A DNA stretch of 64,000 bases from Candidatus Saccharimonadota bacterium (GTDB taxonomy: Bacteria > Patescibacteriota > Saccharimonadia > Saccharimonadales > Saccharimonadaceae). The notes under the pieces were generated by a model. It saw only the letters and a list, made by a program, of their open reading frames with translations, did not search any database and was not told where the DNA came from. The stretch spans positions 1-64,000 of the forward strand of contig JAEEUB010000001.1 of assembly GCA_016286785.1 (NCBI GenBank), written 5' to 3'. Positions 29,345 to 49,255 of this stretch are shown here, in pieces. Positions within the stretch are counted from its first letter, which is position 1. Every line of letters begins with the position of its first letter. Position numbers and translations under genes: made by a program.

Positions 29345-30416
29345 TACTCTCCCTCCTCTTGCTATGTTTTGCCATTTTCCTGCAAGCATTTAGCAACTTC
29401 GTCTTTACTTTATCGTTTAATTCATATAAAGATCTTATCTTTATAAACTTTTCTGGATTCACAACTGCTAAATTGTTTACAATAAATTCTGCATCTTTTT
29501 CTAATCCTTTTACATCTAAGTATCCAGCCTTCTTATATCTAGAATAATCTTCCTTAACTACGCTACTAAACTCTAAGGCCGCTTCCTTTGTTAATCTTCG
29601 CATATTCCAAATATATCCACTCATCCTCACAATCGCAAGCGTTGTTCCATATTCATCCATCAAATCTCGTTCTTTCAAATAATCTTCTACCTCATCATAT
29701 TCATCTTTCACTGCATATATTTTTCCTGCAGATTTCACGGATGAATTCGGATTATCTTGTCGATAAAACAAAAATGCTTCGTCCATAAAAAAGACTCTTT
29801 TCGCCATAGCAAATACTTTAAAATTGAACCCAGCATCCTGATACGATGCTCCAGCCGAAGGCAAAAATCTTATTTTGTTATTGTTTAAAAAAGTACGCCG
29901 ATAAATCGCACTCCAAATACTTGGCTGCTGATAAAAAATATGACGATATTCCCTAGGATTAACTATCCTCCCAATTTCGTTCTTTAAAAAAAGTTCACTT
30001 GTCCCAGTGCTACCACCTTTTTTTGTTACATATTTATGAAAATTCGCTTTAACTACATCAACGTCATTTTCTTTAGCGATTTTGTACATCTCATAAAATG
30101 CATTTTGCGCTATAAAATCATCCGATTCCACAATTCCAACATACTCGCCCGTCGCTTTATCTAGCCCCATATTCATACTTTTACCATAACCAGAATTTTC
30201 TTTATCAATTATTACTATTCGTTTGTCCTTTTTGGCAAAACTCTTAATGATTTCCAAAGAATTATCTGTTGAACCATCATTTATGCATATTATTTCAATC
30301 TCTTTCAAAGTTTGCCCAACCAAACTGCTCAAGCATTCATCTAAGTATTTTTCCACATTGTATATTGGCACCAATACCGATATTTTTGGTCTTAATGCTT
30401 TAGAATGTTTTACCAC
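29337..30416 (-). CDS. GT2 glycosyltransferase
   Basis: 359 aa with the motifs KISVLVPIYNVEKYLDECL, CINDGSTDNS, GYGKSMNMGL and IVESDDFI. The GYGKSMN and ESDD variants occur in the wider EpsE/CpsIaJ-like group of surface-glycan GTs. A GTG start with GGAG about 7 nt upstream; it overlaps the 3' end of the GT8 gene by 17 nt. The C-terminus ends in a Lys/Arg-rich tail (KMAKHSKRRESND) that may bind membrane lipid heads. Acceptor unknown. Confidence 0.88.
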   Translation of the reverse strand: MVKHSKALRPKISVLVPIYNVEKYLDECLSSLVGQTLKEIEIICINDGSTDNSLEIIKSFAKKDKRIVIIDKENSGYGKSMNMGLDKATGEYVGIVESDDFIAQNAFYEMYKIAKENDVDVVKANFHKYVTKKGGSTGTSELFLKNEIGRIVNPREYRHIFYQQPSIWSAIYRRTFLNNNKIRFLPSAGASYQDAGFNFKVFAMAKRVFFMDEAFLFYRQDNPNSSVKSAGKIYAVKDEYDEVEDYLKERDLMDEYGTTLAIVRMSGYIWNMRRLTKEAALEFSSVVKEDYSRYKKAGYLDVKGLEKDAEFIVNNLAVVNPEKFIKIRSLYELNDKVKTKLLNACRKMAKHSKRRESND

Positions 30417-32280
30417 GCAATCTCCTTAGTGTTCGCCACCTTTTTGATCCATAAGGGATAACTGCAAAATAAGCTTTTACCGCTTTTTCCTTCATTTTAC
30501 CCTTAATCCCTCGCCGCATCATTTTACTATTCATCCCCTCCATCTTTAACCAAAACTTCGTAATATGCTGCAGAAGTTCTTCATAGTAAACCGTCTTCCT
30601 CGCATATTTCCAGAATTCCTGCGCGTAATCTTCAGTCGGGTCATACCATGGCTTTTTGAAGCCAGCATAGTGAATAATCATTGGATTAGTATGAGCTATC
30701 GCATATTCTTTCTGAACTTTATCCGGCGCATAACTAATAACATCCCTAACTCTACTATGATCATGGTCGACAATCATCCCCCACTTCATATCAATATATT
30801 TTACTTCACCCTCACACTCCAAATTCAATACATCCTGGTCGTTATATAGATGCGGTATTGAAGCAAGATCCAGCCACTCCGCCAAAGAATGCTTTTTGCG
30901 CATTCTATCTTCATTGAATAACAAGACGCCAGCCTGGAAATAATTATATGGATCTTTCATCTTAAAATCAGTTTTAACATATTCCATCGTTTCTCGATTG
31001 GCGTCATTTATTTGACCCAGAAAATCAGGATCACGAGTCGCCGCCAATATATAATCGCTAATATCGGTTTCATATAAGTCTGCGATGTCACCATTTATCA
31101 CTAAATCGCTGTCTAGATATAATACCTTCTCATAATCTGGCAACACCTCTTGAATCAAGAATCTGTAATATGTCTCTTCACTAATATGCGCATTTGCCTT
31201 TAGTTTGTATCCAGACAGTAAGCATGCCGCGTCGAAAAATCTAAGCGACAAATTATTGTATGATCCACACATACTTTGTAGAATCTTTTTATTATCATCA
31301 CTTACATCTGTCTGAATCAAAACTACATCATAGTTATAATTTTTATTCAAATGGTCAATTAACGACTGCAAGCAAGTCGCAAAAATCGCCATATAATTAT
31401 TACCAGCTGCAAAAACTATCGGAATCGTTTTCTTTTTGTCATCAAAAGCTGGAGCCAATACTTCTTGCGGTTCTGTTTTTTCAAAATAAACAGTCTGTAG
31501 CTCGAGTACTTTCAAATCATGATCATCTTTCTCGAGCTTCAAAAGAAAGATATTAAATAGTCTTTCCGCCAAATGACCTGGTGTCCTTAAAGCTTCAGTG
31601 TCATATCGTTCCATATTGGCGCGTTCGCAAAACTCTTTTAAAACACCAAACACAAACTCTGAGTATTTAAAGAATAATTCTTTCTTTAAAATATACATAT
31701 TGCAAAAACACATTGTGTGCCCATCTGCAAAATCATGCGCAACTTTACTATACTCTGGATATTTCTTATCAATAATATCAAGCATTAAATCAAAATCCTC
31801 AACATGAAGATGCGGCGCTGTCTTATAATGCTCTCGAACAGAATTCCATCGTCCTTCTAATCTTTGCAGATTCTTTCTTTCCGGTATCACTACGTCATAT
31901 CTCTTCACTAATGATTCAATTATCTTCTCATCGAAACCATATTTTTTTATCATGGCATCACTTGGGTAAGCTTCTATCACATTTCCAAATTCATCTTCTA
32001 TAAATCTCTTCCTATTAAAGCTAAGATACCGCCTGTAATGGAAGAAACCATAATAATCTAAATCAACATTTTTCCATGCATAATACTGCGCCGTCATTTC
32101 ACAATACATAGAATTTAACTCTGAAATATTATCTCCCGCATCATCCTGAATCATGCCTTTAATTTTCGTTTTAGCCTCTGAAGCCCCCAGTTGTATTGGG
32201 ATAAGATGTTTATTTGAAATTATCTTTGCAGGCTTGTGGCATGAAACAAAGATTTTTAGCTTAAACTCACTCTCACTCAT
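30400..32280 (-). CDS. DUF4422 domain fused to a GT8 glycosyltransferase
   Basis: The N-terminal 260 residues match DUF4422 (KIFVSCHKP, ELNSMYCEMTAQYYAW, YYGFFHYRRYL), found in capsule loci and thought to be a glycosyltransferase. The C-terminal part from about residue 285 is a GT8 domain (IPIVFAAGNNYM, the metal-binding DxD in VLYLDSDLVINGD, HYAGFKKPW). Two transfer domains in one chain suggest consecutive sugar additions. I place the start at 32280 (MSESEFK): TATAAT (32288-32293) ends 7 nt before that ATG and overlaps the longer track start. First gene of a five-gene operon. Confidence 0.88.
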   Translation of the reverse strand: MSESEFKLKIFVSCHKPAKIISNKHLIPIQLGASEAKTKIKGMIQDDAGDNISELNSMYCEMTAQYYAWKNVDLDYYGFFHYRRYLSFNRKRFIEDEFGNVIEAYPSDAMIKKYGFDEKIIESLVKRYDVVIPERKNLQRLEGRWNSVREHYKTAPHLHVEDFDLMLDIIDKKYPEYSKVAHDFADGHTMCFCNMYILKKELFFKYSEFVFGVLKEFCERANMERYDTEALRTPGHLAERLFNIFLLKLEKDDHDLKVLELQTVYFEKTEPQEVLAPAFDDKKKTIPIVFAAGNNYMAIFATCLQSLIDHLNKNYNYDVVLIQTDVSDDNKKILQSMCGSYNNLSLRFFDAACLLSGYKLKANAHISEETYYRFLIQEVLPDYEKVLYLDSDLVINGDIADLYETDISDYILAATRDPDFLGQINDANRETMEYVKTDFKMKDPYNYFQAGVLLFNEDRMRKKHSLAEWLDLASIPHLYNDQDVLNLECEGEVKYIDMKWGMIVDHDHSRVRDVISYAPDKVQKEYAIAHTNPMIIHYAGFKKPWYDPTEDYAQEFWKYARKTVYYEELLQHITKFWLKMEGMNSKMMRRGIKGKMKEKAVKAYFAVIPYGSKRWRTLRRLRGKTF

Positions 32281-32412
32281 GCTTTTCATTATACCATACA
32301 CACAAATACTTTATATACCCTATTGCTGCCCTACCCTAGTCATACCGCTCATTACAACACAAATAAATTTTTGGTAAACTAATCCACTAAAGTATGGTAC
32401 AATCTAATTCAT

Positions 32413-34056
32413 ATGAAGGGAGTTATAAAAACAAAAGAACTTATTTATGCATGCCTAATATCGTGTGCTATCGGCTTTATGCTATTTATAAATGAGCCAA
32501 TAACACTATATGCAAACAATATAAACGATTTCTGGTTCGACTTCTACGTGCTTATATTTCCATCATTATTATTTTTTTCATTAACCACCATAATACTTTT
32601 CATTATATTTACTGCATTTTTCTTTCTGTCAAAAAAAACAGCTCTTAAAAAGACGTATTATTGGGCTATCATTTTTGCAATATTTTGCTTTCTATGTGCA
32701 TATATTCACAGCAATTTCCTTGCTGGATTTTTGCCACCTTTAGACGGCACTAATCCAGACTGGAGTAGTAAAACTGCAAATATAATTTCAATAGCAACCT
32801 GTGCCATAATTGCTATCGCACTAATTGTTTCAATAAAAAAAGCTGGCTATCATAAAACTATCAAATACGCGTCCACTTTAGTTGCGGCCATCGTCTTTAT
32901 TCTATTCTTATCACTGGCTTCCACCGCAATGACAACCGACGTTTTTAAGCCAAAAGAATTCATTGCTACTTCTACCACAAAAAATATTAATCTTATTTCC
33001 AATAGAAATAACTTCGTCATATTACTTCTTGACGCTGTTGATTCTGTACAATTCGATAAAGTAGTTTCAGCTAATGAATCCTACCAACAAGCATTAAAGG
33101 ATTTTTCCTATTACCCAGATACCGTATCGGCATACTCCTATACAAGAGATTCAATTCCGTTTATTTTTTCGAATACTTGGAATGAAAATCAAACATCTTT
33201 TGCCGAATACTCGACTAATGCTTATAATAATTCCGAGTTTTTCAAAAAGCTCTCAGAAAAAGGATATAACAAAAATTTTTACGAATATGAACTGACTTGG
33301 AATAATCAAAAAGCTACAGAGTTCAACAATATAGAAAGTCCGTCAAGCGGAAGTATTAAAAAGAAAGCATTACTAAAACAAGAAATTAAATATATTCTTT
33401 ATAAATCACTGCCTTTTCCACTTAAATATCTTTCCAAAATTGAAACCTTAGACTTCTCAGAAACAAAACCGATTAATGACGTTTTTCAATGGGATAACTT
33501 GATTTTTTATAATGACTACCTCAGACGACCCACAGAAAAAACCGACCAAAACTACTTCAGTTTTATACATATCGAAGGCGGCCATACGCCATTTAATGTC
33601 ACCGAGAATCTCGAACCCATCCCAGAAAATGATGGCACCTACGAACAAAAACTTGAAGCAAATATGAAAATAATCGAAAATTATCTAAACAGACTAAAAA
33701 ACAATAACGCGTATAATAATTCCACTATCATCATTATGGCCGATCACGGGTTTTGGTATGGAACAAGTAGCCGTGCCAATCCAATTCTCTACATTAAGGG
33801 AACCAATGAAAAACACAACAAAATGACAGTCTCTCAAAAACAAATATCCTTCGAAGATCTCAGCGATGCATTTATAGAGCTACTTAACAATAAAAAAAGC
33901 GATGAAATATTTGAAAACATACCAACCTCAGGTCGGATTCGACGCCACATATATAATGGATTTGGCGAAGAAGATAGATTAATCGAATATAATCAAACTG
34001 GTAACGCTTGGGAAGACAAAAAGCTACAACCAACTGGAAGGGAGTATAATCTATGA
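32413..34056 (+). CDS. Sulfatase-fold membrane protein, LTA synthase-like
   Basis: About five N-terminal membrane helices (1-180), then an extracytoplasmic alkaline-phosphatase-superfamily domain: the first metal motif NFVILLLDAVDS, a candidate nucleophile in SYTRDSIPFIFSN, HIEGGHTPF, and the metal-binding IIIMADHGFW. Enzymes of this design transfer phosphoglycerol or phosphoethanolamine groups to polymers outside the cell; which group here is unknown. 547 aa. TACAAT (32398-32403) lies 9 nt before the ATG. Its stop overlaps the ATG of the YidC-TagF fusion, so the two products are made together. Confidence 0.85.
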   Translation: MKGVIKTKELIYACLISCAIGFMLFINEPITLYANNINDFWFDFYVLIFPSLLFFSLTTIILFIIFTAFFFLSKKTALKKTYYWAIIFAIFCFLCAYIHSNFLAGFLPPLDGTNPDWSSKTANIISIATCAIIAIALIVSIKKAGYHKTIKYASTLVAAIVFILFLSLASTAMTTDVFKPKEFIATSTTKNINLISNRNNFVILLLDAVDSVQFDKVVSANESYQQALKDFSYYPDTVSAYSYTRDSIPFIFSNTWNENQTSFAEYSTNAYNNSEFFKKLSEKGYNKNFYEYELTWNNQKATEFNNIESPSSGSIKKKALLKQEIKYILYKSLPFPLKYLSKIETLDFSETKPINDVFQWDNLIFYNDYLRRPTEKTDQNYFSFIHIEGGHTPFNVTENLEPIPENDGTYEQKLEANMKIIENYLNRLKNNNAYNNSTIIIMADHGFWYGTSSRANPILYIKGTNEKHNKMTVSQKQISFEDLSDAFIELLNNKKSDEIFENIPTSGRIRRHIYNGFGEEDRLIEYNQTGNAWEDKKLQPTGREYNL

Positions 34057-35951
34057 TTTTCGTTGATTTTCTCGGCTGGATTATGAAATTATGCTACAGT
34101 GTCGTAAGTAATTATGGCGCAGCAATTATCTTATTCACTTTAATTAGCAAAATAATCCTTCTACCAATTTCGATTTGGGTTCAAAAGAACTCTATCAAAA
34201 TGGTAAAAATGCAACCCGAAATCAATCTCCTCAAAGTAAAATATTTTGGCGACAAAGATACTATCGCAGAGGAAGAATCAAAAATATACAAAAAATATAA
34301 ATATAATCCCTTAGCCTCCCTCGTGCCGCTTATCGCGCAAATCGTTCTACTCCTGAGTATAGTAGAAATCGTTAAAAACCCTACTCTATATATTGGAGTT
34401 GAGAATCTCGACTATTATTTCCTTGGCTTTAACCTACGCTGGATTGCCTCCGAAAATGGTGGAACTGCTATCTGGATTCCTATTATTGCCGGTCTTTCTG
34501 CCCTCGCACTTTGTATTAGCCAAAATATCATGAATGTTCTTCAAGCCGAACAATCTAAATGGAATAAATACGGCATGCTTGTTTTATCGGTCGGATTGTC
34601 GGTTTATCTAGGCACATTTGTTACAGCAGGAGTAGCCCTCTATTGGACTGCCAGCAATCTCATGGCTATCTTCCAACAATGGATTCTTAACATTTTCATT
34701 AATCCTAAAAAGCATGTCGACTATAAAGCGCTAGACAAATCACGCCAGGAATTAAAAGAACTCGAAAACATCGCAAAATCCCACAAACGTACCAAGGAAC
34801 AGATAAAAAAAGAAAAAGATGATTATAAAAGATTCTTTTCTATCGCCAATAAAAAACTTGTTTTCTATTCTGAAAGTAACGGTTTTTATAAGTATTACAA
34901 AGGTATAATAGAATACATCCTCAACAATACCAATCTTACAATTCACTATATTACTAGCGATTACAACGATCAAATCTTTGAGCTCGCCAAAACCGAAAAA
35001 CACATCAAACCATATTATATCGAAGAGAAAAAACTTATTACCCTAATGATGAAAATGGATGCTGATGTTGTCGTAATGACTATGCCAGATATTAATAATT
35101 ATCACATCAAACGCAGTTATATCCGAAAAGATATCGAATATATTTATGTGCCTCACGGAATTGATAGTCTAAATCTCACCATGCGTAAAGGGTCAATGGA
35201 TAATTATGATTCCATTCTTGTAACCGGTAAACATCAACGCGAGGAATGCGAAAAGACCAATGAAGTCTACAATTTAAAAAATCGCAAAATTATAGACTGG
35301 GGTTATTCACTACTAGACGACATGATCTCAGAATATAAGAAAACCAAGAAAAAATCCAGCAAAGAGAAAACCGTCATGATTGCTCCATCGTGGCAAAAAG
35401 ATAATATTATCGACTTATGTTTGGATAAAATATTAAAATCCGTCAAAGGTAAAAAATATAAAGTCATTGTAAGACCACACCCTCAACAAGTTCGCCATAT
35501 GAAAGATCTATTTGAAAAGATGAAAGAGAAATACAATAATACTAATATCGTCATTCAGACAGATTTTTCCAATACGGATTCAGTGTTTAATGCAGACTTA
35601 TTAATTACGGATTGGTCTAGTATTGGATACGAATATGCCTTCACTACCAAAAAGCCGGTTATATCTATAGATACGCCCATGAAAGTCATGAACCCTGAAT
35701 ACGAAAAAATCAAGGTTGAACCATTCAATATCTGGGCGCGAGAACAAATCGGCGAAGTCATCAAGGTCAAGGACGCTAAGAATATTGACTCTATTATTAA
35801 AAAAATACTCAAAGATCCCACAAAATATCAGAAAAAAATATCCGCCCTTAGGAAGAATTCGGTATATAATATAGGGAATAGTGCGGAAATAGGCGCTGAA
35901 TATATTATCAAATGCGTGCAAGCTAAAGTTAAAGAAAGGAAGAAAAAATGA
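34053..35951 (+). CDS. YidC/Oxa1-like insertase domain fused to a TagF/TagB-like transferase
   Basis: Residues about 1-220 resemble YidC/Oxa1: SNYGAAIILFTLISKIILLPIS, an amphipathic KMQPEINLLKVKY helix, later helices around 95, 150, 180 and 205. A charged coiled linker (225-265) joins them to a CDP-glycerol glycerophosphotransferase-type domain (265-620): YVPHGID, APSWQKD, RPHPQQV and LLITDWSSIGYEYA, corresponding to the HG, RPHP and TDxSS motifs of TagB/TagF. A stand-alone yidC exists at 48155, so this copy is free to specialise. Both copies carry Lys where the groove Arg usually sits. 632 aa; overlaps both neighbours by 4 nt. Substrate not known. Confidence 0.88.
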   Translation: MIFVDFLGWIMKLCYSVVSNYGAAIILFTLISKIILLPISIWVQKNSIKMVKMQPEINLLKVKYFGDKDTIAEEESKIYKKYKYNPLASLVPLIAQIVLLLSIVEIVKNPTLYIGVENLDYYFLGFNLRWIASENGGTAIWIPIIAGLSALALCISQNIMNVLQAEQSKWNKYGMLVLSVGLSVYLGTFVTAGVALYWTASNLMAIFQQWILNIFINPKKHVDYKALDKSRQELKELENIAKSHKRTKEQIKKEKDDYKRFFSIANKKLVFYSESNGFYKYYKGIIEYILNNTNLTIHYITSDYNDQIFELAKTEKHIKPYYIEEKKLITLMMKMDADVVVMTMPDINNYHIKRSYIRKDIEYIYVPHGIDSLNLTMRKGSMDNYDSILVTGKHQREECEKTNEVYNLKNRKIIDWGYSLLDDMISEYKKTKKKSSKEKTVMIAPSWQKDNIIDLCLDKILKSVKGKKYKVIVRPHPQQVRHMKDLFEKMKEKYNNTNIVIQTDFSNTDSVFNADLLITDWSSIGYEYAFTTKKPVISIDTPMKVMNPEYEKIKVEPFNIWAREQIGEVIKVKDAKNIDSIIKKILKDPTKYQKKISALRKNSVYNIGNSAEIGAEYIIKCVQAKVKERKKK

Positions 35952-36154
35952 ATATAATATCAACTTTTGGCTATATCGATCCATCAGTTATGACCTATGC
36001 CATTCAAGCTGGGGCCGGCATCATTATCGCAGTTGGCGCATTCGTTGGTCTCTACTTTAGAAAGGCAAAGAAGAAAGTCAACAAAAAACTTGGCGTCGAC
36101 GAAAACAAGAAAAAGGAAGTCGAATCCGACGATATCGAAATTAAAAAAAGGTAA
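35948..36154 (+). CDS. Small single-helix membrane protein with YIDP motif (68 aa)
   Basis: Starts MNIISTFGYIDPSVMTY, followed by one membrane helix (AGAGIIIAVGAFVGLYF) and a Lys/Glu-rich cytoplasmic tail. Small proteins with a YIDPxxxS-like start next to one helix recur in envelope-polymer loci as I remember them, but I know no function. The ATG overlaps the stop of the YidC-TagF fusion, so it is an operon member and a plausible accessory or client of that protein. Confidence 0.75.
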   Translation: MNIISTFGYIDPSVMTYAIQAGAGIIIAVGAFVGLYFRKAKKKVNKKLGVDENKKKEVESDDIEIKKR

Positions 36155-36160
36155 ATTACT

Positions 36161-37993
36161 ATGCAAGCGTTAATTCTAGCCGCCGGCATGGGCAAGCGTC
36201 TCGGCAAGTATACGTCCGACAACACAAAATGCATGTTGAAAGTAAACGGTAAAACACTAATCGAACGCGCAATTGAAGCTCTGGTGGGCGCCGGAATTAA
36301 TAAATTAATTTTAGTCCTAGGATATAAAGGTGAAAACGTCAAGCAATTCCTTTTGCATGACTGCGATAATCCAGCAGTTAAGCAAATAAAATTAGTTTTC
36401 ATCGATAACCCTATTTATGATAAAACTAACAATATTTGCTCATTATTCTTAGCAATTGATGAATTCAAAAAAGAAGACACTATCCTCCTAGAATCTGACT
36501 TAATTTACGAACCAGAGCTAATCAAAAGAATTGTCGAAGATGAAGAACCAAATCTGGTTTCTGTGGCCAAATATGAACAGTGGATGGATGGAACCGTCGT
36601 AAAGCTCAACCAAGACACCAATAGTATTGTAGAATTTATTGAGAAAAAAGATTTCAACTATCGTGATATTGAAAAATATTATAAAACCGTCAATATCTAC
36701 AAATTTAGCAAACATTTTATCAACAAGGAATTCGTTCCTTTTCTTAAAGCCTATATTGAAGCGTATGGCGAAAACGAATATTACGAATTAATCCTTAAAA
36801 TCATTGCACATCTATCCAGAAGTAGCCTAAAAGCATTGGATGTTTCCGACTTAAAATGGTATGAAATTGACGATTCTCAAGACCTAGATATTAGTACCTG
36901 TCTCTTTTCGGAAGGCGAAACCAAACTTAATAATCTTCAAAAACGTTTTGGTGGTTATTGGCGTTTCGACGAGCTACTAGACTATTGTTATTTGGTTAAC
37001 CCATATTTCCCTACCAAAGGTTTACTTAATAAAATCAATTATTTCTCCCAAACTCTCATTTCAGAGTATCCTTCTGGGCAAAAAGTGAATTGCATTTGCG
37101 CAAGCCGTCTATTTAATGACGTAGATACTAACCACCTCGTGGTTGGTAACGGCGCCGCAGAATTAATATCAACCCTCGGTAATATTCTTACTGGTAAAAT
37201 GCTCCTTTCAAAGTCCGTCTTTAATGAATATGCTCGTTGTTTTAATAAGTGTAAACTACATAAATTAAACTTAGCGAAGACTAATTATTCATATGATATT
37301 GACGCCCTAAAAGAAGCTCTTCAAAACCATGATTGTTTGTGCATTGTAAATCCAGATAATCCTACTGGAGCTTTCATAAAAGAAAAAGATATGCTTTCTC
37401 TTTTAAACCAAGCTAAACTCCAAAACAAAACCATCATTTTCGATGAATCGTTTATTGATTTTTCCGAACCCGACAAACGCTATACTTTCATTACCGACGA
37501 TATTCTCAATTCATTCCCCAACCTAATCGTTATTAAGAGTATCAGCAAATCTTACGGAGTACCAGGTATCCGTTTGGGTGTTTTAGCTTCTAGCAACGAA
37601 GCTCTCATCCAAGAAATTAAACAGAAAATACCAGTCTGGAACATCAATTCTTACGGCGAATACTTCCTACAAATCGCCAATCTATACAAAAATGATTACA
37701 TTCTATCCTGCGATAAAATCGCCGAAGAACGAAAGCGCATGATAAAAAAGCTACAAGAAGCGCTCCCTAAAAAATGTCATGTTTACTCATCAGAAGCTAA
37801 CTTCCTAATGGTAGACCTAGGCAATATCGATTCCACAAAGTTAGCCATCGAGCTGCTAAACAAGAAGATATTCATTAAAGATCTCAAAACTAAAGATGCA
37901 TTTAAAAACAAAAACTTTATTCGCCTCGCAGTCAGAACCGATAAAGAAAACGATAAACTAATTCATGATATCGTATCAACTTTAAATATATAA
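36161..37993 (+). CDS. Cytidylyltransferase-aminotransferase fusion (LicC/PntC-like)
   Basis: Residues 1-240 form a sugar-nucleotidyltransferase-like domain (ALILAAGMGKRLG, DNTKCMLKVNGKTLIERA, DNPIYDKTNNICSL) of the LicC type that activates phosphocholine or related amino-phosph(on)ates with CTP. Residues about 255-610 are a fold-type I PLP aminotransferase/decarboxylase (NPDNPTGAFI, the Lys in SISKSYGVPGIRLG, LRxAVRT-like end FIRLAVRT). The same order is described for PntC-type enzymes that make CMP-aminoethylphosphonate. Here it probably makes a CMP-activated amino alcohol phosphate or phosphonate to decorate the surface polymer; the exact substrate is open. No phosphonate synthase (PepM) is in the window. 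Confidence 0.85.
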   Translation: MQALILAAGMGKRLGKYTSDNTKCMLKVNGKTLIERAIEALVGAGINKLILVLGYKGENVKQFLLHDCDNPAVKQIKLVFIDNPIYDKTNNICSLFLAIDEFKKEDTILLESDLIYEPELIKRIVEDEEPNLVSVAKYEQWMDGTVVKLNQDTNSIVEFIEKKDFNYRDIEKYYKTVNIYKFSKHFINKEFVPFLKAYIEAYGENEYYELILKIIAHLSRSSLKALDVSDLKWYEIDDSQDLDISTCLFSEGETKLNNLQKRFGGYWRFDELLDYCYLVNPYFPTKGLLNKINYFSQTLISEYPSGQKVNCICASRLFNDVDTNHLVVGNGAAELISTLGNILTGKMLLSKSVFNEYARCFNKCKLHKLNLAKTNYSYDIDALKEALQNHDCLCIVNPDNPTGAFIKEKDMLSLLNQAKLQNKTIIFDESFIDFSEPDKRYTFITDDILNSFPNLIVIKSISKSYGVPGIRLGVLASSNEALIQEIKQKIPVWNINSYGEYFLQIANLYKNDYILSCDKIAEERKRMIKKLQEALPKKCHVYSSEANFLMVDLGNIDSTKLAIELLNKKIFIKDLKTKDAFKNKNFIRLAVRTDKENDKLIHDIVSTLNI

Positions 37994-38015: not shown

Positions 38016-40211
38016 TTAATCTATAATTATGTCAAGGAATGCTTGCCATGAGTGACGTTTATTCAGAAGCCTCTGTGCTGATTTTGCTAGTTTACTTAGT
38101 TTTTTAGGATTCTTCGAGATCTCATTAATACGCTCAATATATTCTTTAGGATTCTTATAATCCTCCACTAAGATCCCGGTCTTTTCGTTCTGCACAAACT
38201 CACCCACTCCCCCATCGTTACTTGCCAAAATTGGTATTCCAGCCGCTGCCGCTTCCAAAACAACATTTGGCATACCATCAGATAACGAAGTATATAATAA
38301 TAAATCATATTCAAAAATCGGAAGTGACTCAAATCCATTATATACTCCACAATATTTTAATGCCGGAATATCATCAAATATATCTTTATTGACAGTTTTA
38401 TCAATTTCACCATAGACGTCTATTGTTACCTTATTTTCGTCCAAACGCTTTCCTATTTCTGCCACCAATTCCGGCATTTTCACCGAAGTTACACGACCAG
38501 CCCAAAGAATCTTAATCTTTCCTTCTTCTACCAATTCTTCGTGCGGAGAGACAACTTCCATGTCTTTAATTGGTTGATATAGTACTTTTATCTTCTTTTC
38601 ATCAAAAGCATTTACATCTATCAAATAATCCTTCATATTCTGATTGTCAGTAAAAATATATCTAACCGCCGAATAAATATCAAATAAACGAGGATTAGCA
38701 TACGATTCTACAGCCTCAAAATTACTTCCCTCAATATATCCCCATGCAAAAATTGATACATCTAAACGATATTCCGCTTCAATCAGCTTTTTATGCTTCT
38801 TAATCCATAGATATCCAAAATCAGAATTTATTATATGTAATTTATTGCATTGCAGTTGGACTATCAGTCTTGACATTAATTCATCTCTCGCTTCATCAGA
38901 CCAAAGCTCGGCGGCCACATTTCCATAATCAATGAAATCGACACAATCCGGAAGTTTATCGGCCCAAGTGTTTTTTACTGGCAACGTAGAAATAACCGCA
39001 AAATGCCATTCGGGATGCTTTTCTTTTAGAGCTTCAATATAATTGAATAATACTTTATCCGCACCACCACGCACTACCCATGGCACAATAAAAACATAAT
39101 CCGGTTTCTTTTTAACCATTTTTGCCAATCTGCAAAAAGCTTCACCAATTAATGATTGTGCGTCTGCTTCGTATAAAGTAGCATCTATAAGCAATTGCTT
39201 ATATGGATATAATAGAGGTTCGGTATGGTTTGCAGCTACCCACTCCTTTATCACCCAGTCCGGCACTATCGTTTTAAAGCTGCCTATTTGCGAATCGTCT
39301 TTCGGCAAACGACCCATCGTCCACAACGTAAACTTTGCTACGGGCGTAATGAAAAAATTCAGATATTTATTATTTCTAATTCCCTTGTATACCCTTCTCG
39401 CCGTCCATTTCTTTTTAGCTTGATCTTCGTCTTGCTCCGCTTCTGCACGTTTTAGTCTCTCATCCATTTCCGGTGTCGGCACAGTAGCCATCTGCTTCAA
39501 ATCAAACAAATCCATGGCGGGTATCACTACCCCATCATTATTTCCAGACGATAATCTCGAGTTTTCCGAACGACGATAAAAAAGTACCGTATTACCCGCA
39601 ATTCTATGCGGGATATTCTTTTGAATAGTATCGATATTAAAAATCCAATCCTCATGACCATAACCAATACCTAACCTTCTATATGGAGTCGAAATAAAAA
39701 CACTGCGCCTCGCAAGTGAGACAGAGCACCATAAATTTCCACTAGCCAGTATAGTAGCTTCTTCTTTAGGTAATCTTGAGTTGCGTTGAATTGTTAAAAT
39801 GTTAGGCTGATCCATCCCAAATGTTAAAATTGCTTCCGGATGCACGATAATATCTTTTTTTGATTTCTTCACTAGTTTTAAAGCTTCCAAGAACCAATTT
39901 GGAGAAATCAAATCATCCCCATCCATAAACGCAATCATATCGCCCCGTGCTTTATTGGCGGCGAAGTTCCTGGAAGAACCAGTATCACCAAAACTATTCT
40001 GAAAAATCCTAATTCTTTTATCACTCTTATATCTATCCAAATAGTTAATCGTTGCATTATCCCCATTATCAACATGGATAACAATCTCATAACCATATCC
40101 AGATTTTTCTACCCTATCCAACGCTTCAAAAATACTCATCATTGTTTTGTGTAATATTAGGCCCTCAGTATGTGTAGTTATCGCAACGGTTAAATCAATC
40201 TTTTTCTTCAT
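38016..40211 (-). CDS. Bifunctional glycosyltransferase, GT2 plus GT4
   Basis: 731 aa. The N-terminal 230 residues are GT-A/GT2 (LTVAITTHTEG, HVDNGDNAT, SSRNFAANKA, AFMDGDDLI). The region from about 360 is GT-B/GT4: VPWVVRGGADKVLFNY, ILWAGRVTSVKMPELVAEI, and the donor-site SDGMPNVVLEAAAAGIPILAS. The two catalytic domains could add two different sugars in turn. It follows the GT2 gene at 40208 with an ATGA overlap and converges on the cytidylyltransferase fusion with a 22-nt gap. Confidence 0.9.
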   Translation of the reverse strand: MKKKIDLTVAITTHTEGLILHKTMMSIFEALDRVEKSGYGYEIVIHVDNGDNATINYLDRYKSDKRIRIFQNSFGDTGSSRNFAANKARGDMIAFMDGDDLISPNWFLEALKLVKKSKKDIIVHPEAILTFGMDQPNILTIQRNSRLPKEEATILASGNLWCSVSLARRSVFISTPYRRLGIGYGHEDWIFNIDTIQKNIPHRIAGNTVLFYRRSENSRLSSGNNDGVVIPAMDLFDLKQMATVPTPEMDERLKRAEAEQDEDQAKKKWTARRVYKGIRNNKYLNFFITPVAKFTLWTMGRLPKDDSQIGSFKTIVPDWVIKEWVAANHTEPLLYPYKQLLIDATLYEADAQSLIGEAFCRLAKMVKKKPDYVFIVPWVVRGGADKVLFNYIEALKEKHPEWHFAVISTLPVKNTWADKLPDCVDFIDYGNVAAELWSDEARDELMSRLIVQLQCNKLHIINSDFGYLWIKKHKKLIEAEYRLDVSIFAWGYIEGSNFEAVESYANPRLFDIYSAVRYIFTDNQNMKDYLIDVNAFDEKKIKVLYQPIKDMEVVSPHEELVEEGKIKILWAGRVTSVKMPELVAEIGKRLDENKVTIDVYGEIDKTVNKDIFDDIPALKYCGVYNGFESLPIFEYDLLLYTSLSDGMPNVVLEAAAAGIPILASNDGGVGEFVQNEKTGILVEDYKNPKEYIERINEISKNPKKLSKLAKSAQRLLNKRHSWQAFLDIIID

Positions 40212-41197: not shown

Positions 41198-41737
41198 ATG
41201 GAAAATGATATATATCAAGAAAGATATTTAAAACATCAACTAGATAAAAAAGAAGAACTCATAAAGATTATGAAGGAACGTCACTCGAATCGTCGTTTTG
41301 ATGATAAGCCAATACCACAAGAAATAATCGATGAGTTAATTTCCGTCGTAGAATTGGCCCCTTCAAGTTGTGATCGTAAAGCAATCAAAGTCGAAGTTAT
41401 AACCGATCGAGACAAAAAAGCACTTCTTGGAGGAATTCTAGTTGGTGGAGTAGGTTGGATTCATAGAGCACCAGCCATCTTGCTAATTACGGCAGATCCC
41501 AAAGCTTACAAAGCCGAAGGTGAAATAAAGTTTATGCCTTATCTAGATGGCGGAGTCGTTTCTCAGCAACTTGCACTTACTGCCACTTCACTCGGAATTC
41601 ACGGCTGTTTTGCCAATCCGAATATTAGAGATTTTAATGTAGATCATTACCACAAAATTTTTGGTCCAAATATCCTTACGATGGCATTCGCTATCGGATA
41701 TCCTATCGAAGAAGACTCATCCGATAAAGAAAAATAG
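41198..41737 (+). CDS. Nitroreductase-family flavoprotein
   Basis: 179 aa with the family pattern ERHSNRRFDDKPIPQEIIDELI near the start, LAPSSCDRKA in the FMN-binding region and a Gly-rich TATSLGIHGCF helix cap. Members reduce nitro compounds, quinones or flavins with NAD(P)H; the natural substrate cannot be told. Leaderless start: TATAAT (41186-41191) ends 6 nt before the ATG. It lies inside the glycan locus without an obvious link to it and its last 35 nt overlap the convergent SLH gene. Confidence 0.88.
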   Translation: MENDIYQERYLKHQLDKKEELIKIMKERHSNRRFDDKPIPQEIIDELISVVELAPSSCDRKAIKVEVITDRDKKALLGGILVGGVGWIHRAPAILLITADPKAYKAEGEIKFMPYLDGGVVSQQLALTATSLGIHGCFANPNIRDFNVDHYHKIFGPNILTMAFAIGYPIEEDSSDKEK

Positions 41738-43412
41738 CAATCTGTCGTCTTGTAATTATTACACCGTCTGCAAATTCACCTTCTCTGGCGTAATACTTTG
41801 TTATTCCTTTAGTGTAAGCCCAGTTTATAGCATTCGCCATTTCAATATTGCTTGGTAAATCTTCCAAATTACTATCATAAGCCAACGGTTCATCTTCGTA
41901 TCTCCATAAGAATATCGCAACTTCTCTTCTAGTTATCTGCATATATGGTGCATATTCACCAGGCGAACTATAGTATTTTGTAGTACCGTTGTTGTAAGCC
42001 CAAATAATAGCCTTTGTTCCCAACTCATCATTAACTGATAAATCTTCAAATATTTCACTAGCATTTGAAATATCAACATCTGGTGAACCAGCAAGTCTCC
42101 ATAAGAATATCGCAACTTCTCTTCTAGTTATCTGCATATATGGTGCATATTCACCAGGCGAACTATAGTATTTTGTAATACCGTTGTTGTAAGCCCAATC
42201 AATCGCTAACCGGCCATAGTAGTCATCTGGTAAATCATTAAAAGTCTCATCAGCATCAACTGGTATATCATTTAATAAATACAATGCCAAGGCCGTCTCA
42301 CCTCTCGATAATAATCCTGGCGTTTCCTTATCGACAGTTTCTAATATATTATCAATATCATCAACCTTCTTATCGGGATATTTATTTTGAAATCTAATTA
42401 AGAATTTGTTTAATTGTGCAGTGTCAACTTTTGTATCGGGAGAAAACTCACCCCTTTTGGAATAATAATTCGTTATACCATTTTCATACATCCATCTTAT
42501 AGCTTCAGCACTAAGATTGTCTTCTGGCATATCACAAAAGATATCACAACCAGAAAGTTCATCCTCGTCGGTTATTCCACCAAACCAATCCTCAAATAGC
42601 TTATAAAAATTCAAGTTTCCATACGCATTACAACCATCACTCCATCCACTAAGTGTTGCTGCATTTGGCTGATAAGGCGTATAACGATACAATGCAGAAG
42701 TCGCCAAATTTCTAATATTCACCACCGAACCACCACAAGAAGCTGACGGATTATATTGTACATAGTTGTTTCCAAGCGGATAATTTGTCCATCCTCCATT
42801 AAGTACGGTTCTAAATAGTGCAGCTGCATTTCGAATCTGATTTTTTAATCCATAATACTCCGATGAGCATGCCGCCGTATCAGGACATCCGTAACCAGTA
42901 GCCGATCTATACTGCTGACTATGCGGGAAAGTGTCTGTTACTAAACTTTGCTCTTTTTCAAGCAGTACCAATAAAACCTGCGGATTAATTCGATAATCCT
43001 GCGCCGCTTGATAAATTATATGAGCAGCCGTCCCACCATCAAATACTTCATCTGCCATACATACGAAATGACCATCTCTTACGTGCCAAGTTCTAGGTGG
43101 AGATATCTCCGAGAAATAAGAGACCTTATCTCCAGCCGTATATCTTCCAAGACTCGTATCCCAACAAGAATTCTTAGATTCGAGAAAAGACTGAATCTGA
43201 GATTCACTCATTGAATCATAATTACTCATCTGAAAATCCGAAATAATATAACCCGGATCAAATGCAGATACATTTGCCGCACCTGCATCATTATTTAATA
43301 TTTCGTGTTTTTGCGCCAAAATAGTAAAACTAAATACAGCAACAAAAACCCCACCCACTAGATACCATATTCTTTTATCTCGTCGCTTTATTATACTATG
43401 CTTTATACTCAT
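41703..43412 (-). CDS. Cell-wall protein: lysozyme-like domain plus four SLH-type repeats
   Basis: 569 aa. A membrane anchor or uncleaved signal (residues 17-35) is followed by a region with SFLESKNSCW, INPQVLLVLLEKEQSLV and ATGYGCPD, resembling lysozyme-like/glucosaminidase-like wall proteins of actinobacterial type. From about residue 300 come four SLH-like units, each with AI.WAY.NGITKYYS..GE(Y/F)AP...ITRREVAIFLWR. SLH units bind secondary cell-wall polymer, so the protein may hold on to the glycan made by this locus. Units 2 and 3 are nearly identical in DNA. Its stop is 35 nt inside the nitroreductase gene. Confidence 0.85.
   Translation of the reverse strand: MSIKHSIIKRRDKRIWYLVGGVFVAVFSFTILAQKHEILNNDAGAANVSAFDPGYIISDFQMSNYDSMSESQIQSFLESKNSCWDTSLGRYTAGDKVSYFSEISPPRTWHVRDGHFVCMADEVFDGGTAAHIIYQAAQDYRINPQVLLVLLEKEQSLVTDTFPHSQQYRSATGYGCPDTAACSSEYYGLKNQIRNAAALFRTVLNGGWTNYPLGNNYVQYNPSASCGGSVVNIRNLATSALYRYTPYQPNAATLSGWSDGCNAYGNLNFYKLFEDWFGGITDEDELSGCDIFCDMPEDNLSAEAIRWMYENGITNYYSKRGEFSPDTKVDTAQLNKFLIRFQNKYPDKKVDDIDNILETVDKETPGLLSRGETALALYLLNDIPVDADETFNDLPDDYYGRLAIDWAYNNGITKYYSSPGEYAPYMQITRREVAIFLWRLAGSPDVDISNASEIFEDLSVNDELGTKAIIWAYNNGTTKYYSSPGEYAPYMQITRREVAIFLWRYEDEPLAYDSNLEDLPSNIEMANAINWAYTKGITKYYAREGEFADGVIITRRQIAIFLYRMSLLR
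41901..42003 (-). repeat. Direct repeat copy A (SLH unit)
   Basis: 103 nt that differ from 42096-42198 at a single base, with a 195-nt (65-codon) period. The one change gives Thr versus Ile (NNGTTKYY / NNGITKYY). Indicates a recent duplication or gene conversion within the SLH gene. Confidence 0.95.
42096..42198 (-). repeat. Direct repeat copy B (SLH unit)
   Basis: Partner of 41901-42003; identical at 102 of 103 positions. The rest of the unit between the copies has diverged, so identity is concentrated at the motif that faces the polymer. Confidence 0.95.
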
Positions 43413-48154: not shown

Positions 48155-49255
48155 TTATCTCCTTTTCTTTTTAATATCTTTTGCGGAGATTCTAGTTATT
48201 TTTGTTCCTGTTTTTTTATTTTCCACCACTTCAGCTTCTTGAATTTTTCTAAGCTCTTTTAATACAGCCTTATCAGTCATATCATCGATCTCTTTATCGA
48301 TGCTCTTTAAAATAATTCTCTGTTGCACTACAGTAATTATATTACTAAGGAAATAATAAAAAGCCAGAGCCCCATTTAGATTAAACATGATTACAAACAT
48401 CATTATTGGCATCATCATAGACATTTGTCCGGTAGCCATACTACTAATGTCCGAATCATCAATCTCTTTTCCATCTTTAGCTTCTTTTAAGAGTTCACGG
48501 AATTTCTTTTTCTTTTCCGACTTACCAGATGGCATTTGTTGTTTTGTGGCTATATATTGTATTACAGATGCCAGGATGGCACATACTAGTATAAATAGAG
48601 CACTCCACGAAAACTTACCAGTTAAAACATCGCTCGCTTTCACATCTAGATTAATTACACCTAGCAGTTGCGGGTGAAAATCGTAGGCTATCTTATCTTC
48701 TTTTGCAACTTCGTCATTAACTAAATCAGCAAGATAAACTTCTTGTTTTTCTTCTAATGCCCTAATTTCTGAACCTTCATAAGCTACAATATCATATGCA
48801 CGGTTCATTAGGTTATCAGTCGGAAGTGGTGTTGCTATCACCCGAATAGCCGAAAAAATTGCAATAAATATAGGTAATTGTATTAATATAGTCAATATCG
48901 AAGCAAAAGGCTTTACATTGTATCTCTTATAAAGATCCATGGTTTGCAAAGATTCTAACTGCTTATTTCCTTTACAATTCTTTTTTATCTCCGTTAATTG
49001 TGGCTGCAGCTTGCGCAGTAGTTTAGTTTGATTTAGTTGTTTTCTAGAAAGTGGCCACATGCAAAGCTTTACAATTAAAGTAAAGATTATAATAGCAAGC
49101 CCAAAATCATGCACCAGATTAAAGATTACAAACAGTATATTTACAATTGGTCTTACCACTATCAAATCAATAAAATTAAATGGCCCGCCAGTAATGATTG
49201 AGCCTACTACAAAAGCCACAAACAACGACCAGTAGATAAACTTTTTCACACTCAT
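48155..49255 (-). CDS. yidC: Membrane protein insertase YidC
   Basis: 366 aa with N-terminal helix, the Oxa1 core (HDFGLAIIIFTLIVKLCMWPLSRKQL), the amphipathic LLRKLQPQLTEIKK segment, PFASILTILIQLPIFIAIF, and later helices (MMPIMMFVIMFNLNGALAFYYFLSNII). Inserts proteins into the membrane, alone or with SecYEG. The groove Arg of most homologues is Lys here. It lacks the large periplasmic P1 domain of Gram-negative YidC. A second Oxa1-like domain is fused to a transferase at 34053. Operon rnpA-yidC-jag. Confidence 0.96.
   Translation of the reverse strand: MSVKKFIYWSLFVAFVVGSIITGGPFNFIDLIVVRPIVNILFVIFNLVHDFGLAIIIFTLIVKLCMWPLSRKQLNQTKLLRKLQPQLTEIKKNCKGNKQLESLQTMDLYKRYNVKPFASILTILIQLPIFIAIFSAIRVIATPLPTDNLMNRAYDIVAYEGSEIRALEEKQEVYLADLVNDEVAKEDKIAYDFHPQLLGVINLDVKASDVLTGKFSWSALFILVCAILASVIQYIATKQQMPSGKSEKKKKFRELLKEAKDGKEIDDSDISSMATGQMSMMMPIMMFVIMFNLNGALAFYYFLSNIITVVQQRIILKSIDKEIDDMTDKAVLKELRKIQEAEVVENKKTGTKITRISAKDIKKKRR

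Follow-up and report, generated by a model that had tools for sequence, protein, structure and literature searches.

A YidC/Oxa1-TagF fusion and its partner genes as a predicted surface phosphotransfer system in Saccharibacteria and gut Firmicutes

Introduction

What is a membrane domain of the Oxa1 family, whose members are known as insertases, doing in one chain with a TagF-like phosphotransferase? The question is raised by four + strand genes at 32413-37993 of a 64,000-nucleotide (nt) stretch of DNA from a Candidatus Saccharimonadota bacterium (contig JAEEUB010000001.1 of assembly GCA_016286785.1, positions 1 to 64,000), hereafter the window; the genome to which it belongs has 766,527 bases and is 97% complete. 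In order, the genes encode a membrane-anchored enzyme of the alkaline phosphatase (AlkP) superfamily, the YidC/Oxa1-TagF fusion protein, a small peptide (YIDP), and a LicC-like cytidylyltransferase joined to a CobD-like pyridoxal phosphate (PLP) enzyme (Table 1). An earlier note, made from the sequence alone, had drawn these genes as one operon, and its coordinates and spacing were confirmed throughout: genes 1/2 and 2/3 share ATGA overlaps of 4 nt, and genes 3/4 are separated by a gap of 6 nt. It had also proposed a self-contained envelope phosphotransfer system, which is supported by the parts and their linkage. The identities of these parts, their folds and intact catalytic residues, their co-occurrence and re-fusion, and the swapping of their donor modules are well supported by sequence and structure. 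The probable task of the system is to decorate the cell surface with ethanolamine-phosphate-like groups, and our best explanation of how this is done, offered tentatively, is a transmembrane phospho-headgroup relay in which a group would be made inside, flipped and transferred outside.

The fusion protein and its partners

Gene 2 is a true fusion of an Oxa1 domain with a TagB/TagF-like domain, as had been proposed. Both PF02096 (60KD_IMP, E 6.5e-31) and PF04464 (Glyphos_transf, E 4.4e-14) are matched over the Pfam cut-offs, and the AlphaFold2 model, built with 58 aligned sequences, is well defined (predicted local distance difference test, pLDDT, 89.9; predicted template modelling score, pTM, 0.72). 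In a single chain, Foldseek matches B. halodurans YidC (3wo6; TM-score on target 0.75, root-mean-square deviation 3.3) and TagF (3l7l, E 1.1e-10), as well as a capsule multienzyme, one part of which is TagF-like (8qoy, E 3.5e-11; also 8a0c). The TagF-domain residues H368 (PHG), R474/H476 (RPHP) and D520 (TDWSS) are kept in all 58 alignment rows. Two outcomes that would have undone the proposal can be excluded. Residues 1-220 of the model do have the Oxa1 fold, and an assembly error merging two genes is rejected, since the fusion recurs at full length, with 85-89% identity, in three of 89 relatives of the same genus, and 80 further loci have it, with few exceptions, in complete or near-complete form.

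In its GT-B fold and two conserved, catalytic-type histidines, the C-terminal domain is like TagF, the cytidine diphosphate (CDP)-glycerol glycerophosphotransferase (PF04464), and belongs with the TagF-like CDP-alcohol phosphotransferases. Unlike TagF, it carries an Oxa1 domain in the place of the usual membrane-binding part, and its neighbouring donor genes indicate ethanolamine-, choline- or phosphonate-type donors. The N-terminal domain shares the five-helix fold, the groove lysine and a YW pair in the last helix with the YidC/Oxa1/Alb3 insertases (PF02096), but is here covalently tied to phosphotransfer enzymes. Because the genome encodes a separate, ordinary YidC at 48155-49255, the fusion appears to be an extra YidC copy with another job. 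Replacement of arginine by lysine in the groove was considered as a mark of specialisation and rejected, as the genome's canonical YidC likewise has Lys.

The description of gene 1 as a sulfatase-fold enzyme is borne out by several methods. It matches PF00884 (E 3.2e-8) and has five N-terminal helices followed by a domain predicted to lie outside; its AlphaFold2 model (pLDDT 92.6, pTM 0.85) has the AlkP fold, with PbgA/YejM, 3lxq and MCR-1 among the Foldseek matches, and the best PDB match in a profile search is LtaS (2w5q). Six residues do not vary among 42 relatives: D207, T244 (nt 33142-33144), H386, H391, D444 and H445. A true type I sulfatase was considered and rejected: in place of the formylglycine motif Cys/Ser-x-Pro/Ala-x-Arg, T244 stands in YTRDSIP. 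With Thr at the nucleophile position and the metal-site Asp/His residues invariant, the enzyme is judged to be of phosphotransferase or phosphodiesterase type. LtaS and EptA are AlkP-fold membrane enzymes that take headgroups from lipids. Gene 1 is like the LtaS, EptA-MCR and PbgA proteins in its N-terminal transmembrane helices, its fold, its nucleophile-position Thr and its metal site; it is unlike them in that identity is low and its relatives are fused to YIDP or YidC.

The YIDP peptide of the window consists of a short N-tail with the motif YIDPSVMTY, one transmembrane helix and a Lys/Arg-rich C-tail. A short N-tail is also found in other Saccharibacteria, whereas in most Firmicutes the start is signal-peptide-like and ends in AxA-YIDP; an N-out, C-in topology is predicted from both types of start. 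There is a weak, sub-threshold match to an inovirus coat protein (PF05356, E 0.0017). Small signal-peptidase-like genes lie near the fusion in 18 of the loci L041-L120 (e.g., L085:7921-8358), which fits the AxA-YIDP cleavage site in Firmicutes.

A four-part core and its re-fusions

Outside the window, the fusion is commonly accompanied by the same partners. Of 77 loci, 57 have an AlkP gene nearby, and in 37 a same-strand AlkP gene immediately precedes the fusion. The YIDP gene was found near the fusion in 47 of the 77 loci by clustering, and it lies directly downstream in 46, most frequently with a 4-nt overlap; motif search placed it within 4 kb of the fusion in 72 of 80 loci, and contig ends account for some of the loci where it was missed. 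The co-occurrence of sulfatase-fold and YIDP genes with the fusion, which the earlier note had put forward as a check on its proposal, is therefore found, and in some genomes these genes have merged with it or with one another.

Five kinds of join have been seen: YidC-TagF, AlkP-YidC, YIDP-AlkP, YIDP-TagF and a triple AlkP-YidC-TagF. The triple fusion is a single chain of about 1,190 amino acids (aa) at L081, L103, L104 (888-4481) and L106, which fall at two places in the tree, and its order from outside through the membrane to the inside agrees with YidC topology (N-out, C-in). YIDP-AlkP fusions occur in 18 proteins, mostly from Erysipelotrichaceae. In Lachnospiraceae there is a second architecture, in which a YIDP-TagF protein (about 420 aa, with the motif YIDPGTGS) adjoins a YidC-AlkP protein (about 860-1,040 aa); it is found at L149:5769-11626, L178, L180-L183, L185, L187 and L190-L193, and a query with its TagF gave matches in 16 of 397 sampled genomes. 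Since the modules are fused to one another in such varied combinations, recurrent re-fusion is to us the best argument for a joint function of the four parts. The fixed core consists of AlkP, YIDP, Oxa1 and TagF. The cytidylyltransferase-PLP fusion does not belong to it, being one of several interchangeable donor modules.

Interchangeable donor modules

Gene 4 had been read as a LicC-like enzyme joined to a PLP enzyme of the PntC aminotransferase type, and the first part of this reading holds. Its N-half (PF12804/PF00483) resembles LicC (1jyk) and the PntC nucleotidyltransferase (6pd1), and its C-half (PF00155, class I/II PLP) resembles 6oux, 3ftb and S. enterica CobD (1lc5). Identity with PntC, a cytidine monophosphate (CMP)-2-aminoethylphosphonate synthase with a fused aminotransferase (PMC6697681), was rejected: gene 4 is alike in fusing a LicC-like nucleotidyltransferase to a PLP enzyme, but that enzyme is CobD-like class I/II and not class V. 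PepM was not found in the closest sister genome (G518) nor among the window proteins scanned, the window genome (G000) itself not having been searched. A phosphonate assignment for the window is not upheld on these grounds. The best NCBIfam model for gene 4 is TIGR01140 (CobD, E 4.7e-50), and because the score of 170.6 is under the cut-off of 290.6 the C-half is termed CobD-like only. A CobD relative in Sulfurospirillum decarboxylates phosphoserine, and the predicted product of gene 4 is CDP-ethanolamine or CDP-aminopropanol, not a phosphonate.

Donor genes are exchanged from locus to locus. Three close relatives have a HisC-like aminotransferase and a TagD-MocA fusion in place of LicC-CobD, and other fusion loci hold at this place a 2-aminoethylphosphonate (AEP) pathway (PepM, Ppd, a PhnW-type transaminase and LicC) or a hydroxyethylphosphonate (HEP)-type pathway with an iron alcohol dehydrogenase (Fe-ADH). 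Most loci of the second architecture adjoin LicC-choline/ethanolamine kinase genes, AEP or HEP operons, or LicC-CobD. A polymer that is phosphodiester- or phosphonate-decorated, as the earlier note had it, is therefore right for the family as a whole, with phosphonate versions in relatives, and not supported as to phosphonate in the window. A PhnS2/T2/U2-like AEP importer and LicC lie beside or near the fusion at L085, L110, L113 and L117, as if AEP were scavenged and reused on the surface. A TagD-like cytidylyltransferase fused to a Gfo/Idh/MocA oxidoreductase is paired with HisC-like or class V aminotransferases at L042:13221-14543 and in relatives.

Of the three main donor modules, LicC-CobD is the commonest in 50 fusion genomes (18), followed by PepM (10) and TagD-MocA (7). 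LicC-CobD and PepM never occur together (Fisher p 0.0085), which is suggestive of mutual exclusion; TagD-MocA co-occurs with LicC-CobD in two genomes. An unbiased sample of 200 Lachnospiraceae genomes has LicC-CobD in 21, the fusion in 8 and both, adjacent to each other, in 2. Judging by gene content, the donor modules are alternative routes to phosphoethanolamine, phosphocholine or phosphonate look-alikes, and the chemical likeness of phosphoethanolamine, phosphocholine, AEP and HEP indicates the donor class of the TagF domain. The system resembles Lic-type phosphocholine decoration (LicC, LicD) in its CDP-activated aminoalcohol donor, its LicC-like enzymes and the LicD genes at some loci, and differs in that the TagF-Oxa1-AlkP-YIDP set replaces or supplements LicD.

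The donor genes also bear on a teichoic-acid type system based on CDP-glycerol, in which TagF would polymerise glycerol-phosphate and the aminoalcohol genes would serve other steps. The TagF fold, the TagD-like domain in 7 of the 50 fusion genomes and a separate TagD gene in L188 are consistent with such a system. However, most loci are without tagD, many have ethanolamine, choline or phosphonate donor genes, and a standalone TagF relative with 33% identity is located in a PepM/Ppd/Fe-ADH phosphonate operon. We consider this reading very unlikely, and the least probable of those weighed here.

How the parts may work together

In the relay, the CobD-like half of gene 4 would decarboxylate O-phospho-L-serine or -threonine to ethanolamine- or aminopropanol-phosphate, which the LicC half would activate with cytidine triphosphate to give a CDP-aminoalcohol. 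At the cytoplasmic face, the TagF-like domain would take the phospho-aminoalcohol off CDP and place it on an acceptor in the membrane, most probably a lipid; across the family, it may transfer (phospho/phosphono)ethanolamine-type groups from CDP or CMP donors inside. The headgroup or lipid-linked intermediate would then cross the membrane by way of the polar groove of the fused Oxa1 domain. At the outer face, the AlkP-fold enzyme would form a covalent Thr intermediate and hand the group on to an acceptor such as a surface glycan, in the manner of LtaS and EptA with their lipid donors. YIDP may serve as a small N-out subunit in the membrane, coupling the parts or assembling them. In this scheme we infer the exact substrate, the lipid nature of the intermediate, the direction, the roles of the Oxa1 domain and YIDP, and the final acceptor. 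Because the Oxa1 domain joins enzymes on opposite sides of the membrane, something would have to cross it, and YidC and other Oxa1 proteins can scramble lipids in vitro (PMC10491306). Phosphatidylethanolamine synthesis of the Psd type was looked for in 35 genomes and not found in 29, the window genome among them, so that a lipid donor would need another synthesis route. A more general proposal, made with greater reserve, is that an Oxa1/YidC-family domain was recruited in two architectures as the membrane-crossing step, with a CDP-donor enzyme in the cytosol charging a lipid with a phospho- or phosphono-aminoalcohol, the Oxa1 domain shuttling it and the AlkP enzyme using it outside.

Alternatively, decoration may take place inside only. 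TagF would add phosphoethanolamine-type groups or polymer directly to a lipid-linked glycan at the cytoplasmic face, the Oxa1 domain would be only an anchor or scaffold, a separate exporter would be used, and the AlkP enzyme would edit the polymer outside. TagF and the capsule-polymerase relatives among the fold matches work on the cytoplasmic face, glycosyltransferase genes and an ABC-2-type ATP-binding cassette pair are close by in many loci, and LicC-CobD is elsewhere also found near LicD genes. Left unexplained are the fusion of AlkP to Oxa1 domains in two arrangements and the constant choice of an Oxa1 domain as anchor. Such decoration is possible, though less probable than the relay in either of its forms.

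The Oxa1 domain could also be a dedicated insertase, placing YIDP and/or the AlkP enzyme beside the TagF enzyme. The groove position 33 is Lys in 57 and Arg in one of the 58 rows of the window-type architecture, YIDP resembles a YidC-only substrate in its short N-tail, single transmembrane helix and positive C-tail (and in its weak PF05356 match), and the 4-nt overlap of the two genes suits coupled expression. In the second architecture, however, this usually Arg/Lys residue is Asn in 15 and Gln in 2 of 17 proteins, and the positive charge is thus absent. The YidC groove residue has been described as strictly conserved and positive, and its neutral substitution inactivated S. mutans YidC2 (PMC8920935); the change in all 17 proteins argues against a plain insertase role there. 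With the signal-peptide-like start of YIDP in most Firmicutes and the standard YidC of the genome also speaking against it, a dedicated insertase is unlikely. The earlier note's preference for a scaffold, or for a channel carrying a lipid-linked substrate, over an insertase may hold for the Oxa1 domain; it gains from the Asn/Gln of the second architecture.

Several points weigh against the relay. Retention of K33 in the first architecture means that insertase activity may persist there. TagF relatives of known function use glycerol-phosphate or sugar acceptors, a lipid acceptor not being the default, and AlkP-fold enzymes may also be hydrolases. GHMP kinase was not found in the window genome, which concerns the supply of gene 4's phospho-amino acid. 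Donor linkage is also imperfect: 17 of the 50 fusion genomes are without any of the three main donor modules, and the tree-corrected exclusion of LicC-CobD and PepM has a median p of 0.125, with every informative pair in the same direction. In the Lachnospiraceae sample, 19 of the 21 genomes with LicC-CobD are without the fusion, and several place LicC-CobD near LicD genes. Since most carriers there are without the fusion, LicC-CobD also serves other enzymes, and it was dropped as a specific marker of the system after this sample. On balance, the make-flip-transfer relay is favoured over decoration inside only, and a dedicated insertase comes after both.

Distribution and origin

When 84,980 species were scanned, 107 relatives of the fusion came up; 80 were kept, and nearly all of these align across both domains. 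The hosts are mostly gut Firmicutes and include gut Lachnospiraceae, Erysipelotrichaceae, Oscillospiraceae, unplaced Bacilli and Clostridia, and Saccharibacteria. Many records are metagenome bins; the pattern nonetheless repeats across projects, including the complete genome of Lachnospiraceae GAM79. Because the 15 Saccharibacteria proteins form one clade (Shimodaira-Hasegawa-like approximate likelihood ratio test, SH-aLRT, 100) nested within Bacillota, the tree points to a single transfer from Firmicutes to Saccharibacteria. Foreign base composition was sought as a sign of transfer, and the guanine-plus-cytosine content of the operon matches its surroundings; the case for transfer therefore rests on the tree. 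As to a phage or viral origin, no relative was seen in a scan of viral contigs, plasmid and phage collections not having been searched. In a distant Patescibacteria genome (G215, L039:2090-6943), an unfused TagF relative lies in an operon of the hydroxyethylphosphonate type with PepM-cytidylyltransferase, Ppd and Fe-ADH.

The earlier note knew of no described YidC-TagF fusion system, and in the open-access literature, subscription papers being beyond the search, we likewise found no description of such a fusion, of the four-part set or of YidC with AlkP. As chemistry, CDP-activated decoration of the envelope is familiar; what is new to us is the architecture.

Features of the locus

The operon is flanked on each side by opposite-strand genes. 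Two further glycosyl-enzyme fusions border it, DUF4422 + GT8 and GT2 + GT1 (window 30400-32301 and 38016-40211). An exported-looking protein with 'ITKYYSSPGEYAPYMQITRREVAIFLWR'-type repeats and a weak surface layer homology (SLH) match is encoded at 41703-43412, and the 3' end of its gene overlaps a convergent nitroreductase gene (41198-41737).

Table 1. Positions of the four genes and their domains in the window
Feature	Position	Strand	Basis
Gene 1: membrane-anchored AlkP-superfamily ('sulfatase-fold') enzyme, 547 aa	32413..34056	+	PF00884, alignment, AlphaFold2, Foldseek, profile search
Gene 2: YidC/Oxa1-TagF fusion protein, 632 aa	34053..35951	+	Pfam, AlphaFold2, Foldseek
Gene 2, Oxa1/YidC membrane domain, residues 21-213, groove lysine K33	34113..34691	+	PF02096, YidC structures
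Gene 2, charged helical linker, residues 214-264	34692..34844	+	Sequence; modelled helices 224-238, 248-263
Gene 2, TagF-like CDP-alcohol phosphotransferase domain, residues 265-611, GT-B fold, catalytic-type H368 + H476	34845..35885	+	PF04464, Foldseek
Gene 3: YIDP peptide, 68 aa	35948..36154	+	Motif and topology prediction
Gene 4: LicC-like cytidylyltransferase + CobD-like PLP enzyme, predicted donor maker	36161..37993	+	PF12804/PF00483, PF00155
Gene 4, LicC-like half, residues 1 to about 245	36161-36895	+	PF12804/PF00483
Gene 4, CobD-like half, residues about 270-606	36968-37978	+	PF00155

Significance

To our knowledge, no bacterial cellular use has been assigned to the lipid scrambling that Oxa1 proteins carry out in vitro. 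With gene fusions that repeatedly tie an Oxa1 domain to one enzyme inside the cell and another outside, a physiological role other than insertion can be put to direct test. Many uncultured gut Firmicutes are predicted to carry surface groups of the phosphoethanolamine, phosphocholine or aminoethylphosphonate type, a kind recognised by hosts and phages, and Saccharibacteria appear to have acquired the machinery from these gut bacteria. If the relay is true, it would give the insertase superfamily a role in lipid-headgroup transport, one that is spread in gut Firmicutes and was passed to an episymbiotic Saccharibacterium.

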